From the NCBI RefSeq assembly GCF_900108095.1, contig NZ_FNWL01000001.1, forward strand, positions 1,054,001-1,118,000: a stretch of 64,000 nt of DNA, read 5' to 3'. The notes beneath the pieces were generated by a model. The model was not told the DNA's origin and searched no databases. It worked only from the letters and a program-made list of their open reading frames with translations. The stretch is from Natronorubrum sediminis (GTDB lineage Archaea > Halobacteriota > Halobacteria > Halobacteriales > Natrialbaceae). The translations under genes were made by a program, and so were the position numbers. Below, piece after piece: positions 4,918 to 61,467 of this stretch; position 1 is the stretch's first letter, and the number at the start of each line of letters is the position of its first letter.

Positions 4918-5916
4918 TCAGTACGCCAGTTCCCAGCGCTCGTCCTCGCTGTCGGCGAGTTCGTCGGCGACGCCCTCCGCCAGCCGATACTCGTCGTCTT
5001 CACGGACGACGGTTCCCGCCCGTTCTAAGTGCTCGAGGTGAGCGTACGATTCACCGGGTCCGTGGAGAATGTGGATACTCTCGAGTTCGCCGAAGAGGTC
5101 GTCGCTGACGGTCCAGGTGTCACAGGGCCCCTTCCGATCGAGCGCGTCGAGAACTCGCCACGCACGCTCCTCGTGGTGGTCGATGATGTACTGGGCCCGT
5201 TCCGATGGGTCGTCGATCGGATCGCGGTGACCCGGCCACGCGCGGTCGTATTCGGCGTCGACGATACCCTGCAAGGCTCGCAGATACTTCTCGAGTGGAT
5301 TATCGACGCGAACGTCGGCACCCCCGACGTTCGGCGTGTAAACGGGCAACAGCGCGTCGCCCGAGACGACCTCGCGACGGCCGTCGACCGTCGTCTCGAA
5401 CATCGATAGCCCCGCGGCGTGTCCGGAGGCGTGGACGACCTCGAGGTCGTGTTCGTACCCCTCGAGGGCGAATCGCTCGCCGTCTTCGAACGTCGTCACG
5501 GTCGGTGCGTCGTTCGATTCGTCGCCGGAGACCATTCGCTCGAGGAGGACCTCCTGTTTGGCCTCGGGCATCCCCCACTGGTCGAAGTACCGCTTTTGGA
5601 GGTCGTGCATCTCCTGCCACGCACCTTCGTCGCCCTCGATGAGCGCTGCGTCGGCTTCGTGGGCGTACACCGTCGCGTCGCTCTCGGCCTGAATCTGCCC
5701 TGCGAGCCCGGTGTGATCGCCGTGCCAGTGCGTGAGAAAGATTCGGTCGACGTTGGCAAACGAGAGTCCTCGGTCGGCGAACGCGGCCTCGAGTTGCTCA
5801 CGCGTCGTCTCCATCCAGTCGCCGGTATCGATCAGCACGACTTCCTCACCGTCCGCTAACAGGTAGGCGTTGTTGTCGCCTTCGAACGCCGAATTCGAGA
5901 GTGAAATTCGATCCAT
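4918..5916 (-). CDS. MBL-fold metallo-hydrolase (LACTB2/glyoxalase II-like)
   Basis: A 332-residue metallo-beta-lactamase-fold hydrolase. The zinc-binding signature 'THWHGDH' is at about residues 62-68 (H63, H65, D67, H68), preceded by 'VVLIDTGDW'. Later ligands are suggested by 'HASGHAAG', 'VVSGDAL' and 'AWPGHRDPI'. After about residue 250 a winged-helix-like tail follows ('IDHHEERAWRVLDAL...'), as in LACTB2-like hydrolases. The substrate is unknown; thioesters and phosphoesters are typical. The start at 5916 gives 'MDRISLSNSAFEGDNNAYLL', the expected first strand. It is preceded on the same strand by the TRAM gene after 158 bp. Confidence 0.88.
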   Translation of the reverse strand: MDRISLSNSAFEGDNNAYLLADGEEVVLIDTGDWMETTREQLEAAFADRGLSFANVDRIFLTHWHGDHTGLAGQIQAESDATVYAHEADAALIEGDEGAWQEMHDLQKRYFDQWGMPEAKQEVLLERMVSGDESNDAPTVTTFEDGERFALEGYEHDLEVVHASGHAAGLSMFETTVDGRREVVSGDALLPVYTPNVGGADVRVDNPLEKYLRALQGIVDAEYDRAWPGHRDPIDDPSERAQYIIDHHEERAWRVLDALDRKGPCDTWTVSDDLFGELESIHILHGPGESYAHLEHLERAGTVVREDDEYRLAEGVADELADSEDERWELAY

Positions 5917-7567: not shown

Positions 7568-8520
7568 CGGACATTCTCGCCATCGCCGACCACCGCCGCG
7601 GCGAACTCCGCGACGTCAGCTACGAGATCATCACCGCCGGCCGCGAACTCGCGAACGAAACCGGCGGCGACCTCCACCTCGCCGCAATCAGCGGCGCTGT
7701 CGACGACTTCGCCGAGAACCTCAACCGCGAGGGCGTCGACGCGATCCACACCGTCTCTCACGGTGAGGAGTTCAACCACGACGTCTACACGCAGGCCGTC
7801 ACCCAACTCTACGACGACCTCGCCCCACAGTACGTTCTCATCCCGAACAGCGTCAACGGCCTCGACTACGCACCCGCCGTCGCCAACCAACTCGGTCTTC
7901 CGATCGTCACGGACACGATCGGCCTCGAGACCGACGGTGAGACGCTGATCGCCACCCGCGAGATGTACGGTGGCAAAGTCGAGACGACGAACGAACTCGA
8001 GGGCGAGTCGGTCGTCACGATCCGCAGTACCGAGTGGCCCGTCGCCGAAGGAACCGGCGACGCCGCGATCGAAGCCGCCGACGTTGAGATCGACGAGGAC
8101 GCCATCGGCTCGACCGTCAACGGCTACGAGGAAGTTGCCGGCGGCGACGTCGACATCAGCGAGGCCGAGGTGCTCGTCAGCGTCGGTCGTGGGATCGAAG
8201 AAGAAGACAACATCCCGATCATCGAGGACCTCGCCGAGGCCCTAGACGCCACGGTTTCCTCCTCGCGACCGATCGTCGACAACGGCTGGCTGCCAAAGAA
8301 CCGGCAGGTCGGCCAGTCCGGTAAAGTCGTCACGCCAGACGTCTACATCGCGATCGGTATCTCGGGCGCCGTCCAGCACGTTGCTGGCATGAAGGGGTCG
8401 GATACGATCGTCGCGATCAACACGGACCCCAACGCACCGATTATGGACATCGCGGACTACGCGATCCACGACGACCTCTTCGACGTCGTCCCCGCACTGA
8501 CCGAAGAGTTCGGCGGGTAA
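7564..8520 (+). CDS. etfA: Electron transfer flavoprotein, alpha subunit
   Basis: A 318-residue EtfA/FixB subunit. The C-terminal FAD-binding half is clear: '[20 protein letters not shown]', then '[22 protein letters not shown]' and '[17 protein letters not shown]' (about residues 235-310). The N-terminal half is the alpha/beta domain that pairs with EtfB. It overlaps the etfB stop by 4 nt. No fixC/fixX partner follows; the next gene is an unrelated transporter, so the quinone oxidoreductase for this ETF must lie elsewhere. A T-rich repeat element follows the stop. Confidence 0.95.
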
Positions 8521-56229: not shown

Positions 56230-56381
56230 GGAACGCTGGCGTATACTCGGGCCGTGTGAGCGGTCTGGCTCTCAGATTCATATTCGCTCGAGCGACGCGC
56301 TATTCTCCGTCTGGGCGCCGTTGATTCACCCCGACGAGTGAAACCACAACCACTACCATCTGGCCACGTCGAGTGACGGGC

Positions 56382-57281
56382 ATGCAACTGGGCGTAATCG
56401 GACTCGGACGGATGGGCCAGATCGTCGTCGACCGAACGCTCGAGGCAGGCCACGACGTCGTCGCCTTCGACCTCGAACCGGAAGCCGTCGCGACGGCAGC
56501 AGACGCGGGCGCCGAACCGGCAGAGTCGATCTCGGATCTCGTCGACCGACTCGGCGCGGAGAAACGCATCTGGTTGATGGTCCCCGCGGGCGACGCCGTC
56601 GACGCCACGCTCGAGGAACTCGACGGACACCTCGAGAGCGAGGACATCGTAGTCGACGGCGGGAACTCCTACTTCGAAGACTCCGTGCGTCGGGCGGAGG
56701 CCTGCTCCGCGGCGTACCTCGACTGTGGCACCTCCGGCGGCCCCGCAGGCGCGCACCTGGGTTTTTCACTAATGGTCGGCGGGCCCGAGTGGGCGTACGA
56801 CGAACTCGTTCCCGTCTTCGACGCCGTCGCGACCGGTCCCGACGGTCACGAGCGTATGGGCCCTGCTGGCTCGGGTCACTACGTGAAGATGATCCACAAC
56901 GGCGTCGAGTACGCCCTCATGCAAACCTACGGCGAAGGGTTCGAACTGCTCCACGAGGGTCGGTACGACCTCGATCTGGAGAACGTGGCGTCGGTCTGGA
57001 ACAACGGCGCAGTGATCCGCTCGTGGCTGCTCGAACTCTGCGAGGAAGCCTTCCGCGAGGAGGGCTCCGATCTGGGCGACGTCGCCGACCGTATCGAGGG
57101 GGGGTCGACCGGCACCTGGACCGTCCAGGAGGCCCTCGAGCAGGAGGTCCCGCTGCCGCTCATCTACACCGCGCTCTCCGAGCGATTCGGTTCGAGAGCC
57201 GATGACGGGCGGTTTTCCCGCCGGTTGGCGAGTCGCCTTCGCTACGGCTTCGGTCGCCACGACGTCCCGCGTCGTGATTGA
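56382..57281 (+). CDS. gnd: 6-phosphogluconate dehydrogenase (decarboxylating, short type)
   Basis: A 299-residue NAD(P)-dependent dehydrogenase. The ATG at 56382 starts 'MQLGVIGLGRMGQIVVDRTL', with the Rossmann loop GLGRMG; a GTG three codons upstream is less likely. Catalytic segments are 'DGGNSYFEDSVRRAE' and 'DCGTSGGPAGAHLGFSLMVG', plus the Lys/Asn in 'GSGHYVKMIHNGVEYALMQT'. This is the short GndA-like type; in Haloferax it is the enzyme of the oxidative pentose phosphate pathway making ribulose-5-phosphate. The residue pattern after strand 2 ('AFDLEPE') suits NAD preference. Confidence 0.92.
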   Translation: MQLGVIGLGRMGQIVVDRTLEAGHDVVAFDLEPEAVATAADAGAEPAESISDLVDRLGAEKRIWLMVPAGDAVDATLEELDGHLESEDIVVDGGNSYFEDSVRRAEACSAAYLDCGTSGGPAGAHLGFSLMVGGPEWAYDELVPVFDAVATGPDGHERMGPAGSGHYVKMIHNGVEYALMQTYGEGFELLHEGRYDLDLENVASVWNNGAVIRSWLLELCEEAFREEGSDLGDVADRIEGGSTGTWTVQEALEQEVPLPLIYTALSERFGSRADDGRFSRRLASRLRYGFGRHDVPRRD

Positions 57282-57964: not shown

Positions 57965-59452
57965 ATGACGTCGGAAAAACGATCGATCGCCGTGCGGTTT
58001 TTCGGAGGGGCTGGAAATTACACCACCGTCCTCGAGGAGTGTTGTACGCACATTCTGACGTCGGATCCGACTGAAACGGCGCTTATCGAGTGGGTGAAAT
58101 CGAACACGGAAGCGACGAGTACCGACGGCATCCGTAACCGACTCCGATTTCTCGAGGCCCTCGAGTTACTCGAGATTGAACCGGAACGCGTGCGGGTGAC
58201 CGAGACGGGAATTACGTGGGTTTCCCAGACGGATCCGGAAGTGTTGTTCGAGCGTCTCGATACAACGGTCTACGGGTTCGAGACGGCCCTCGCGGCGTTG
58301 CAGAATGGACCTAAAACGGACGCCGAATTGGGCGACATCATCGCTAATACGCACGCGGAAGTGAACTGGAACGACCCGTCCGGCCCTGCCCAACACCGCG
58401 GGTGGCTCCAGAGTCTCGGCTACGTGGAACGATTGGACGGGCGCAATTCGCTGACAGACAGCGGGCGAACGCTGGCTCGCCGGCGCACGTCCGACAACCC
58501 GGATCTCGAGCGCCAGACGTACTATACACAGACGGACCTCGAGGAAGCCTTCGACACCAGCTTCGGGTCCTACATCAAGGGGATCAATCCGCGAACCGAC
58601 GACGACGGGGAACTGTCGTACATCATCGTGAAAGCTCGAGAGGATGGTCCATACAGCGACGAACTCGACGGAGAACGGTTTACGTACATCGGCGAAGGAG
58701 TGCCCTCGAAGGGCGACCAAACGCTGACTGGTGCAAACAAGGCGCTCCTCGAGCAGGCCGAGGGCGCATCTGTTCCCGTCTATTTCTTCTACCAACCAGC
58801 TGATCGCAGTGACCTTCGATACGAGGGACTGGTTTCGGTCGTCGACGTTCGCTACGTCAATGCAGACGAACGCGACCGGAGAGTCTACGAGTTCACGATG
58901 GAACGACTGGACCTCGAGCATCCGACAGCATTCGAAACGCTCGCGGCGTCAGTCACCGCAGGTGCGCACGAAGGAACTGATTCGAACGCGAATGATGGGG
59001 CAACCGCTGGCAGCGACCCGGAACCGGCACTGACCGCTGCAGAGGACGAGTATACCGAGACCCAGCGACGAGTTCGCTCGAGTGCGTTCGCAAAACGGGT
59101 GAAATCGGCCTACGACTTTCGCTGTGCGATCTGTGACCGGAGCCGGGAATCGCCGGCAGGCACGGTCGATATCGAAGCCGCACACATCTATCCGAAACAG
59201 GAGAACGGGCGCGATTTCATCCGGAACGGACTCGCTCTCTGTCGATTACACCACTGGGCGTTCGATGCCGGCTGGCTCGCCATCTCCGACGAGTATCGAA
59301 TTCTGGTTGCCGACCGGCCCGAACTCGAAGGCTACGAGGAGTTTTCGCGACTCGAGGGAGCGCAGATTTCGGTTCCACCAACCGAGGACGAACGGCCCCA
59401 CGCGACGTTCCTCGCTGCACACCGAGAGTTACACGGCTTCGAATCGGTCTGA
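57965..59452 (+). CDS. SRA-HNH nuclease with N-terminal winged helices (type IV restriction-like)
   Basis: A 495-residue protein. Two winged-helix-like modules (about 1-95 and 96-172) are followed by an SRA/YDG-like domain (about 198-315): 'DGPYSDELDGERFTYIGEGV', 'KGDQTLTGANKALLEQAEGA', 'PVYFFYQPADRSDLRYEGLV' and 'YEFTMERL'. A flexible linker (320-365) leads to an HNH domain: C387-x2-C390, H407 in 'VDIEAAHIYPKQENGRDFIR', N421, and C426/H429/H430 in 'NGLALCRLHHWAFDAGW'. SRA domains flip modified cytosine; SRA-HNH pairs (ScoMcrA type) cut modified DNA. The N-terminal winged helices are not usual for ScoMcrA. It is tail-to-tail with a PD-(D/E)XK gene. Confidence 0.82.
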   Translation: MTSEKRSIAVRFFGGAGNYTTVLEECCTHILTSDPTETALIEWVKSNTEATSTDGIRNRLRFLEALELLEIEPERVRVTETGITWVSQTDPEVLFERLDTTVYGFETALAALQNGPKTDAELGDIIANTHAEVNWNDPSGPAQHRGWLQSLGYVERLDGRNSLTDSGRTLARRRTSDNPDLERQTYYTQTDLEEAFDTSFGSYIKGINPRTDDDGELSYIIVKAREDGPYSDELDGERFTYIGEGVPSKGDQTLTGANKALLEQAEGASVPVYFFYQPADRSDLRYEGLVSVVDVRYVNADERDRRVYEFTMERLDLEHPTAFETLAASVTAGAHEGTDSNANDGATAGSDPEPALTAAEDEYTETQRRVRSSAFAKRVKSAYDFRCAICDRSRESPAGTVDIEAAHIYPKQENGRDFIRNGLALCRLHHWAFDAGWLAISDEYRILVADRPELEGYEEFSRLEGAQISVPPTEDERPHATFLAAHRELHGFESV

Positions 59453-59490
59453 AGCGACAATTTTCCCTCGCCAACGGAGTTTACACACCT

Positions 59491-60735
59491 TCACACGTGT
59501 TCTCGAAGCGCCCACACGTCCTCGAGGGGCTCCAGACGATGGGGCTCCGCCCCGCGTTCGGTCAGGATTCCGACGTGGTAGAGCATCGCCTTCAGCTGGA
59601 ACACGGTGGGCGAGTGGTAGATCGCCCCGTCCTCGAGTGCCTCGCGCCGGAGGTCGCCGTTCTCGGTCAGCACCCGCCGTCGAACCGCGTCGTCGCCGCG
59701 GACGAAGAGTTCGATCGCGAACGTCGGGTGAACCGCGTGCAGGTGCTCGAGGAGGTCCACGAGCGAGGGTTCGGGCTGCCAGTCGTCGTGCATGGTCTGG
59801 AGTTCCGTGACGAGCAGTTCCGTCGCGGGGTACTCGAAGACGACGCGGCGGGCGAGTTGCCCCCAGGCGGGCGCGAGGTCGACGAAGCGTTTGCGCGACC
59901 GGTACCACTCCTCGAACGCCGCGAGGGCGGCCTCGACGGAGCCACAGCGGCCGATGGCGAAGCGGACGACCTCGTGGCCGAGCGACGTCAGTTCGACGCC
60001 TCGGGGACCCGTTTCGATCAACCCCAGAAACGCCGCGCCGCGTTCGGCGTCCGAGGCGGCGCTGACGACCTTGTACTCCGAGAGCACCGTCGCGGTGTCG
60101 CCCTCGGCGTAGTGGGCCAGCGGATAGCCGAGGTAGTTCTTCGGGTGGTTCAATCCGAAGGAGGCGTCGGCCACGCCTTGCGCTCCGGCCTGAAACCGAA
60201 GCGCCGTCGCCTCGCTCGAGGACCGATTCCCGACTACCCGCGGCACCTCGAGGACGGACACCTCGCCCGTCGCGTCGACGCCGAGGACGCCGACGTTCAG
60301 TTCGCTCGCGAGCGTTCGGTCGGTTTCCGTGATCGCCGCGCTCGGGGCTGCGAAGTACGCCGCGTTGGCCTCGTGGAGTCGGTCGTAAGCCTGGACGATG
60401 CCGAGGTGGGTGTCCACGCCGCCGCTCGTCTCGCCTTTCGCTTCGATGGCGATCAGCGGCGGCTCCTCGCCCAGTCGTTCAACGGCGAGGAGGTCCGACT
60501 CGAGGGATCCGACGCCCACCAGGTCAGGGTAGCCGCCACCGATCTGGACGTGGTTGAACGGCGCGAGTTCCTCGCGAATCCCGGCCGCGATGGGCTGGCC
60601 GGGCAGCCACTCGTCCTGCGAAAACTGCGTGTCAGCGACGACGTAGGAGTCTCCGTCCTCGGCGGGCGAAAAGAGCCGCCGCTTGGTGTGGGCCAGCACC
60701 CGCGGTTCCGACAGCGGACGCGTCGCACCACTCAT
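59491..60735 (-). CDS. PD-(D/E)XK nuclease-fold protein
   Basis: A 414-residue protein. The ATG at 60735 ('MSGATRPLSEPRVLAHTKRR') is used; the long upstream open frame runs antisense through an intergenic region and the DUF393 gene and is rejected. The nuclease core is 'HVQIGGGYPDLVGVG' (D71) and, after a strand, 'PPLIAIEAKGETSGG' (E98, K100), i.e. PD-x(n)-ExK. 'LGIVQAYDRLHEANAAYFAA' is the typical helix/strand after it. The C-terminal half (about 190-414) is helical and may include winged-helix modules ('LGLIETGPRGVELTSLGHEV'). I infer a DNA- or RNA-cutting defence or repair enzyme. It ends 38 bp from the SRA-HNH gene. Confidence 0.78.
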   Translation of the reverse strand: MSGATRPLSEPRVLAHTKRRLFSPAEDGDSYVVADTQFSQDEWLPGQPIAAGIREELAPFNHVQIGGGYPDLVGVGSLESDLLAVERLGEEPPLIAIEAKGETSGGVDTHLGIVQAYDRLHEANAAYFAAPSAAITETDRTLASELNVGVLGVDATGEVSVLEVPRVVGNRSSSEATALRFQAGAQGVADASFGLNHPKNYLGYPLAHYAEGDTATVLSEYKVVSAASDAERGAAFLGLIETGPRGVELTSLGHEVVRFAIGRCGSVEAALAAFEEWYRSRKRFVDLAPAWGQLARRVVFEYPATELLVTELQTMHDDWQPEPSLVDLLEHLHAVHPTFAIELFVRGDDAVRRRVLTENGDLRREALEDGAIYHSPTVFQLKAMLYHVGILTERGAEPHRLEPLEDVWALREHV

Positions 60736-61071
60736 GGCTGGTGATTGGTCAGCTGCGCCAATAATGTTCTGGCAGTGACCGTTGACCCCGGTCGCTCGAG
60801 AGCCCTCCGCCACTCCACTACTGGACTCGCAGTCCGTCCACTCTACCGTCGAACCAGCCTGCGACCCACTCCACTGCGGGTGGGACTGAAAGGGGCGAGG
60901 CCGATTCGCGCGAGCACCGCGAGCGCGAGTCTCGAGTCGTAGACTCGAGCGGGCTCGGGGCTTTCGTGGTGTATTCGGCGGCACGAGGTGCGATATCGCG
61001 CCTCGACGACGGTCTCTCGAGTCGCGCAACTCCCAGATAGATGTTACTGTCTTGAGGACGTACACCCGAGT
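60736..61071. other. 336-bp divergent region with structured elements
   Basis: No gene is supported. It holds a CCCAC-N10-GTGGG stem-loop (60865-60884) directly followed by ACTGAAAGGGGCGAGG, and a perfect CTCGAGTC-GTA-GACTCGAG hairpin (60931-60949). Both promoters (minus-strand nuclease gene, plus-strand DUF393 gene) must lie here. A small RNA is possible. Confidence 0.5.
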
Positions 61072-61467
61072 ATGACCGAGCCAACCCTCGTCTACGACGA
61101 CGACTGTGGCTTCTGTACGTGGTGGGCCGAGTTCTTCGGCGAACGAACGGAAATCCGACTCGTCGGCTTCAGCGACCTGCCCGACCACCCCGACCTCCAG
61201 GAGCGACTGCCCGAGTTCTACGAGGAGTGTTCCCACCTCGTGGCCGACGACACCGTCTACTCCTGCGGGCAGTCTCTCGAGGAGGCCCTCCGGCGCTACG
61301 ACGACGGCGGACCCGTCGGCAACGGACTCGAGTTCCTGCGGAATTTCGAGGACTACGAACACGTCCGCGAGTGGGGCTACCGGCAGGTGGCGAACAACCG
61401 CGACAAGTGGGGGAAAGTCATGTCGAAGACGCCGCCGGCGCGTCGGGATACCGAAGACTCGGGGTAA
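61072..61467 (+). CDS. DUF393 (DCC family) thiol-disulfide oxidoreductase-like protein
   Basis: A 131-residue protein. The ATG at 61072 ('MTEPTLVYDDDCGFCTWW') shows the family signature DDDCGFC with C12 and C15, the active-site thiol pair of DCC proteins. 'TEIRLVGFSDLPDHPDLQER' and 'SCGQSLEEALRRYDDGG' follow the usual thioredoxin-like pattern. The reaction and partner are unknown. A longer frame of 28 upstream residues is rejected. Confidence 0.88.
   Translation: MTEPTLVYDDDCGFCTWWAEFFGERTEIRLVGFSDLPDHPDLQERLPEFYEECSHLVADDTVYSCGQSLEEALRRYDDGGPVGNGLEFLRNFEDYEHVREWGYRQVANNRDKWGKVMSKTPPARRDTEDSG

Follow-up and report, generated by a model that had tools for sequence, protein, structure and literature searches.

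ScoMcrA combines an SBD, an SRA domain and an HNH nuclease domain, and depends on phosphorothioate modification of its target. A simpler SRA-HNH arrangement is found in TagI, which is dependent on 5mC or 5hmC (PMC6212794). In HHPV4I (HhiV4I), encoded by Haloarcula hispanica pleomorphic virus 4, a winged helix (wH) stands between SRA and HNH; the enzyme cuts near fully methylated Gm6ATC, requires the middle wH but not the SRA domain for this, and is inactive on 5mC and 5hmC (PMC10101028). Fifteen further proteins, nearly all haloarchaeal, were tested by Helbrecht et al. (2024; PMC11037411), who label those of 375-496 aa PUA-wH-HNH, with the wH between PUA and HNH. The longest include HtuIII, Hsa13891I and HsaZ19I (496 aa, Haloterrigena), NtiG33I (492 aa, Natronorubrum tibetense) and NspC1119I (480 aa, Natrinema). 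Dam-dependent toxicity was strong for NspC1119I, mild for HtuIII, Hsa13891I and HsaZ19I, and absent for NtiG33I (PMC11037411, Table 1), which also showed no restriction in E. coli, while HtuIII gave weak nicking near Gm6ATC with Mn2+/Co2+ (PMC11037411). Activity on Gm6ATC DNA is on record for both HHPV4I/HhiV4I and the HtuIII group (PMC10101028, PMC11037411). The same study describes McrBC systems with wH N-termini ('NTD-wH-NTPase'; PMC11037411).

The window analyzed here, a stretch of 64,000 nucleotides from Natronorubrum sediminis, contains two convergent genes that bear on this family. Their features, and the genes that border them, are as follows.

56373..57281, + strand: gnd-like 6-phosphogluconate dehydrogenase gene, named from reading its sequence; left edge of the ancestral spot
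57965..59452, + strand: gene 1 (protein P0001), 495 aa, predicted wH-wH-SRA-HNH endonuclease, ortholog in the HtuIII/Hsa13891I group
57980..58492, + strand: tandem winged-helix module of gene 1, residues ~6-176
58514..58912, + strand: SRA domain of gene 1, residues 184-316, from Foldseek; pocket candidates Y230, D232 and Y241
58913..59044, + strand: linker of gene 1, residues 317-360, with pLDDT < 50 at 333-350; too short for the DpnI-like wH of HHPV4I
59045..59440, + strand: HNH nuclease domain of gene 1, residues 361-492, with C387, C390, H407, D417, N421, C426, H429, H430 and D434
59491..60735, - strand: gene 2 (protein P0002), 414 aa, predicted PD-(D/E)XK nuclease with a helical/wH domain
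59500..60159, - strand: C-terminal domain of P0002, residues 193-412; a homologous domain is fused to HNH in locus L132
60436..60525, - strand: conserved nuclease signature of P0002, D71...E98-x-K100
60988..61467, + strand: DCC/DUF393-like gene, named from reading its sequence; right edge of the ancestral spot

Both open reading frames lie where a sequence-only reading of this DNA had placed them, with stop codons separated by 38 bp (59453-59490), and both are genuine genes, as conserved orthologs or matches and purifying selection attest. Of 125 family genomes, about 30 encode full-length orthologs of gene 1 and 119 (108 of 111 counting good genomes alone) contain a match to gene 2, as do 58 of 117 genomes of a wider set. 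The median dN/dS is 0.195 for gene 1 and 0.165 for gene 2; within gene 1, the HNH (0.152) and SRA (0.164) domains have the lowest values, followed by the wH region (0.231) and the linker (0.42). Over 21 genomes, the distance matrices of the two genes are concordant (Mantel r 0.87, permutation p 0.0005), a pattern consistent with joint vertical descent. A bacterial-type scan, which has little weight in archaea, found no terminator between the two stops.

An AF2 model of gene 1 built on 51 sequences has a mean pLDDT of 84.7 and a pTM of 0.62, so the folds of the individual domains can be used but not their relative placement. The model contains two helix/beta-wing repeats, at ~19-88 and 91-175, in agreement with the two winged helices proposed earlier. 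Pfam gives only weak, sub-threshold matches to this N-terminal region, and an 18-sequence profile of the wH pair finds nothing in the PDB below E 0.66. The SRA domain has no Pfam match even at E = 10 and is thus unrecognized by that library; structure comparison nevertheless bears out the SRA/YDG-like assignment, since Foldseek matches the model to TagI (E 5e-13), to ScoMcrA (E 5e-11) and to the SRA domain of SUVH5 (TM 0.71-0.75 by target length, E down to 3e-7), as expected for the SRA/PUA fold. The three pocket candidates are invariant across 32 sequences. The HNH domain, also named by the earlier reading, is matched by Pfam HNH_2 (E 2.6e-11, residues 387-440) and has a complete active site and zinc site: the residues listed above correspond in order to TagI C210, C213, H229, D241, N245, C250, D253, H254 and D258, and their roles were assigned by comparison with TagI (PMC6212794).

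Gene 1 is 69% identical over its full length to a 496 aa protein of Haloterrigena salina JCM 13891 (locus L092), which is equated with Hsa13891I of PMC11037411 Table 1 by strain and length and not by accession. This identity places gene 1, as judged by homology, in the published HtuIII orthologous group, with which it shares family and length class (480-496 aa); homology over the full length and a common architecture hold across an alignment of 29 orthologs. The genus of NtiG33I is also that of Natronorubrum texcoconense, whose genome (G005) was grouped by the search in one genus with that of the window. A tblastn search of phage records with gene 1 retrieves HHPV4 gp06 (HHPV4I) at E 2e-71. 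The SRA and HNH domains of the two proteins are homologous, with 39% pairwise identity over residues 186-492 and an identical HNH motif, but HHPV4I has no N-terminal wH pair, and gene 1 has no DpnI-like wH between PUA and HNH. The SRA-HNH linker is 23-40 aa in the 29 aligned long orthologs (gene 1 included) versus 102 aa in HHPV4I, too short to hold a wH. Moreover, a search of the PDB with the HHPV4I wH returns DpnI (E 5e-7), whereas the N-terminal wH profile of the gene 1 group has no DpnI match and no alignment with the HHPV4I wH (hhalign probability 0.3%). The published order puts the wH in mid-protein, while gene 1 and 28 aligned orthologs have both winged helices at the N-terminus; on these alignments, the PUA-wH-HNH label does not fit the long HtuIII-type members. 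Stand-alone SRA domains resembling those of HHPV4I and gene 1 also occur as short open reading frames with no nuclease (L022 in genome G018; G008:C43:62794-63165; G074:C1:237361-237765; HHPV3 gp15).

In related genomes, the HNH domain of gene 1 type carries several front ends. These include SRA plus a DpnI-like wH in L233 (81% to HHPV4I), MTaX1 in L009, wH-wH with no SRA in L127 and L130, and, in L232:887-2473, SRA followed by a domain judged by eye to be EVE-like; the genome of L232 (G105) contains an ortholog of gene 1 as well. Conversely, in proteins of ~1,210 aa, wH-wH-SRA stands ahead of an AAA_5 domain that hits E. coli McrB at E 1.5e-12. One of these (L144:6100-9723) is overlapped downstream by a gene (L144:9719-11086) with a PD-(D/E)XK-like RPD...EVK motif and no family match, and L145 is similar. 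These pairs are apparent McrBC-type systems that have their reader in common with gene 1. Fusion of wH-wH-SRA to McrB-type AAA as well as HNH domains argues for the module as a reader of modified DNA. The earlier proposal that the N-terminal winged helices form a new DNA-recognition module is upheld insofar as the module is real, has no PDB relative by profile, and recurs on McrB-type AAA proteins; DNA reading by the wH pair itself is a candidate role.

The earlier reading had also taken gene 1 for an SRA-HNH protein of the ScoMcrA/TspMcrA type that restricts modified cytosine. Its kinship with TagI and ScoMcrA as a type IV SRA-HNH protein stands on the Foldseek matches and HNH residues, but the cytosine specificity is unsupported, because the nearest tested enzymes act on Gm6ATC, HHPV4I is inactive on 5mC/5hmC, and genomes with C5-methyltransferases are not avoided. 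Membership in the HtuIII group makes m6A in GATC-like sites the best present guess for the substrate, favored but unsettled and somewhat short of an even chance; modified cytosine is a lesser yet substantial possibility, and some other mark is rather improbable. In the absence of a DpnI-like wH, any m6A sensing by gene 1 would have to come from the N-terminal wH pair, the SRA domain, or both.

In the strongest competing account, SRA does the reading, the enzyme is really directed at modified cytosine (5mC, 5hmC or a viral cytosine modification), and the wH pair supplies sequence context, the weak Dam-dependent effects of the orthologs being secondary. The canonical SRA fold and the invariant pocket candidates suit this, as the TagI pocket consists of Y55 and Y67 with an aspartate; however, this pocket motif (GPYDD...FEYIGEG) also occurs in HHPV4I, an enzyme inactive on 5mC/5hmC, and any inference to cytosine for gene 1 is weakened accordingly. 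With the m6A-reading wH of HHPV4I missing, an m6A reader would lack an explanation, and four of the five 480-496 aa enzymes show mild or no Dam-dependent restriction, although NspC1119I is strongly toxic in Dam+ cells. Gene 1 also coexists with C5-methyltransferases (PF00145) in 14 of 30 genomes, that of the window included, versus 32 of 95 genomes without gene 1 (p 0.28), so general, as against context-specific, cutting of 5mC is unlikely. Overall, this cytosine account is plausible but takes second place to m6A. The same exclusion tests gave no significant association in either direction for D12 methyltransferases or DndC (1/30 vs 8/95), and among the matches listed the N6-methyltransferase family PF02384 is too widespread to inform. 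As the earlier reading had observed, there are no methyltransferase neighbors: the window has no match to C5 (PF00145) or D12 (PF02086) families and none among the PF02384 matches listed for the genome, which carries a C5-methyltransferase on contig 2 and N6-methyltransferases outside the window.

Dam-dependent effects that are mild or absent, as in four of the five long enzymes, would also fit a mark other than Gm6ATC, which the long HtuIII-type enzymes may read. A wider version of this idea, somewhat unlikely at present, is that the tandem N-terminal wH forms a modified-base reader of its own kind, with no sequence relationship to the DpnI-type wH, that it has been exchanged in haloarchaea as a unit with SRA between HNH and McrB-type effectors, and that the long enzymes read a non-Gm6ATC modification not yet tried.

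Gene 2 was previously put forward as a nuclease partner of gene 1. P0002 looks like a PD-(D/E)XK nuclease with a helical domain: its predicted topology suits that fold (mean pLDDT 88), and the 'GYPD...IEAK' motif noticed earlier holds up, conservation of D71, E98 and K100 in GYPD71...E98-A-K100 being 90% or higher among 45 homologs. A search of the PDB gives no match below E 0.17, and part of the protein matches viral models named MmcB-like with probability 1.0 but E about 2e-3. At the loci examined, the spot reads gnd-like gene, HalOD1-like gene, gene 1, an interval of 38 bp to ~6 kb, gene 2, and DCC-like gene. The interval holds beta-lactamase-like, CAAX-protease-like and nucleotidyltransferase genes, regulators and transposases in other genomes, and with these contents the spot is no clear defence hotspot. 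Decayed remnants of gene 1 persist at the ancestral spot in three genomes (G009, G107 and G124; loci L152:7706-7834, L156:flipped 5304-5402 and L157:flipped 7761-7931), and on this synteny gene 1 is a long-established resident with a history of repeated loss and not a mobile island.

That the two genes form a two-nuclease defence system is very improbable. Gene 2 is indeed convergent with gene 1 within ~6 kb in 28 of 30 gene-1 genomes, and the check proposed in the earlier reading, adjacency of homologues elsewhere, thus comes out positive, but both genes occupy one ancestral chromosomal spot, and such adjacency therefore fails to discriminate a partner from a non-partner. P0002-family genes, mostly of a divergent clade (~40% identity), have wH-HNH or HNH genes nearby in L127, L128, L130, L215, L216 and L217, and L132:3191-4393 encodes a 400 aa protein that joins the P0002 C-terminal domain to an HNH nuclease. 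Against this, P0002 is present in 119 of 125 genomes, mostly without P0001; P0001 occurs without a P0002 match in G125 (complete chromosome, L087), and the two are unlinked in G066; the gap is variable and filled with ordinary, unrelated genes; and P0002 has no conserved neighbor in 29 loci. Presence and absence, synteny and the lack of a conserved neighbor thus lead to rejection of both the partner and the defence-island readings, co-occurrence (119/125 vs 30/125) being far from matched, and gene 2 is best described from its distribution as an independent core nuclease-like gene, merely a common resident of the ancestral location of gene 1. The proximity of gene-2-family members to wH-HNH and HNH genes in the six loci named seems above chance.

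A phosphorothioate-dependent nuclease like ScoMcrA is the least credible identity for gene 1 and is rejected: the NCBIfam PT-DNA_restrict match (E 1.3e-25) and the Foldseek match to ScoMcrA speak for it, but the former is limited to the C-terminal HNH (model 155-280; 90 bits vs a curated cut-off of 180), family libraries find no SBD, and DndC co-occurrence is uninformative.

Gene 1 is thus quite probably a single-protein, NTP-independent, modification-dependent (type IV) restriction endonuclease, with gene 2 independent of it and sharing only its location. A modified base on incoming DNA would be recognized by the N-terminal tandem wH, the SRA domain, or both; the HNH domain, probably dimerized and, like that of its relatives, presumably favoring Mn2+/Co2+, would nick or cut nearby. 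Three points count against this: gene 1 is stably and vertically inherited at one locus and hence less mobile than typical defence genes, the m6A-reading DpnI-like wH is missing from it, and its Natronorubrum tibetense relative NtiG33I gave no restriction in E. coli (PMC11037411).

With gene 1 placed in a bench-tested group, 'm6A or unknown' replaces cytosine as its expected substrate, and m6A sensing by the long members, if real, cannot stem from a DpnI-like middle wH. Assigning domains to marks is relevant to plasmid transformation of haloarchaea and to tools for detecting DNA modification. The remaining interest lies in the architecture and in the mark read by the group.

Compared with the known systems, gene 1 shares with TagI the order SRA then HNH and the catalytic positions, but TagI has no N-terminal wH and uses CxxD where gene 1 has CxxH as zinc ligand, and its cytosine specificity is a less favored possibility for gene 1. 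ScoMcrA shares the SRA-HNH core and has its SBD where gene 1 has the wH pair. The McrBC systems with wH N-termini likewise carry a wH module on a McrB-like AAA domain, and the haloarchaeal examples found here bear the wH-wH-SRA of gene 1, with an AAA motor and a separate nuclease subunit in place of HNH; these may be the proteins described in PMC11037411. That the group of gene 1 has been bench-tested, with relatives from sister genera, was known already; what appears new, from the alignments, is that the HtuIII group does without the DpnI-like helix that HHPV4I carries between SRA and HNH.
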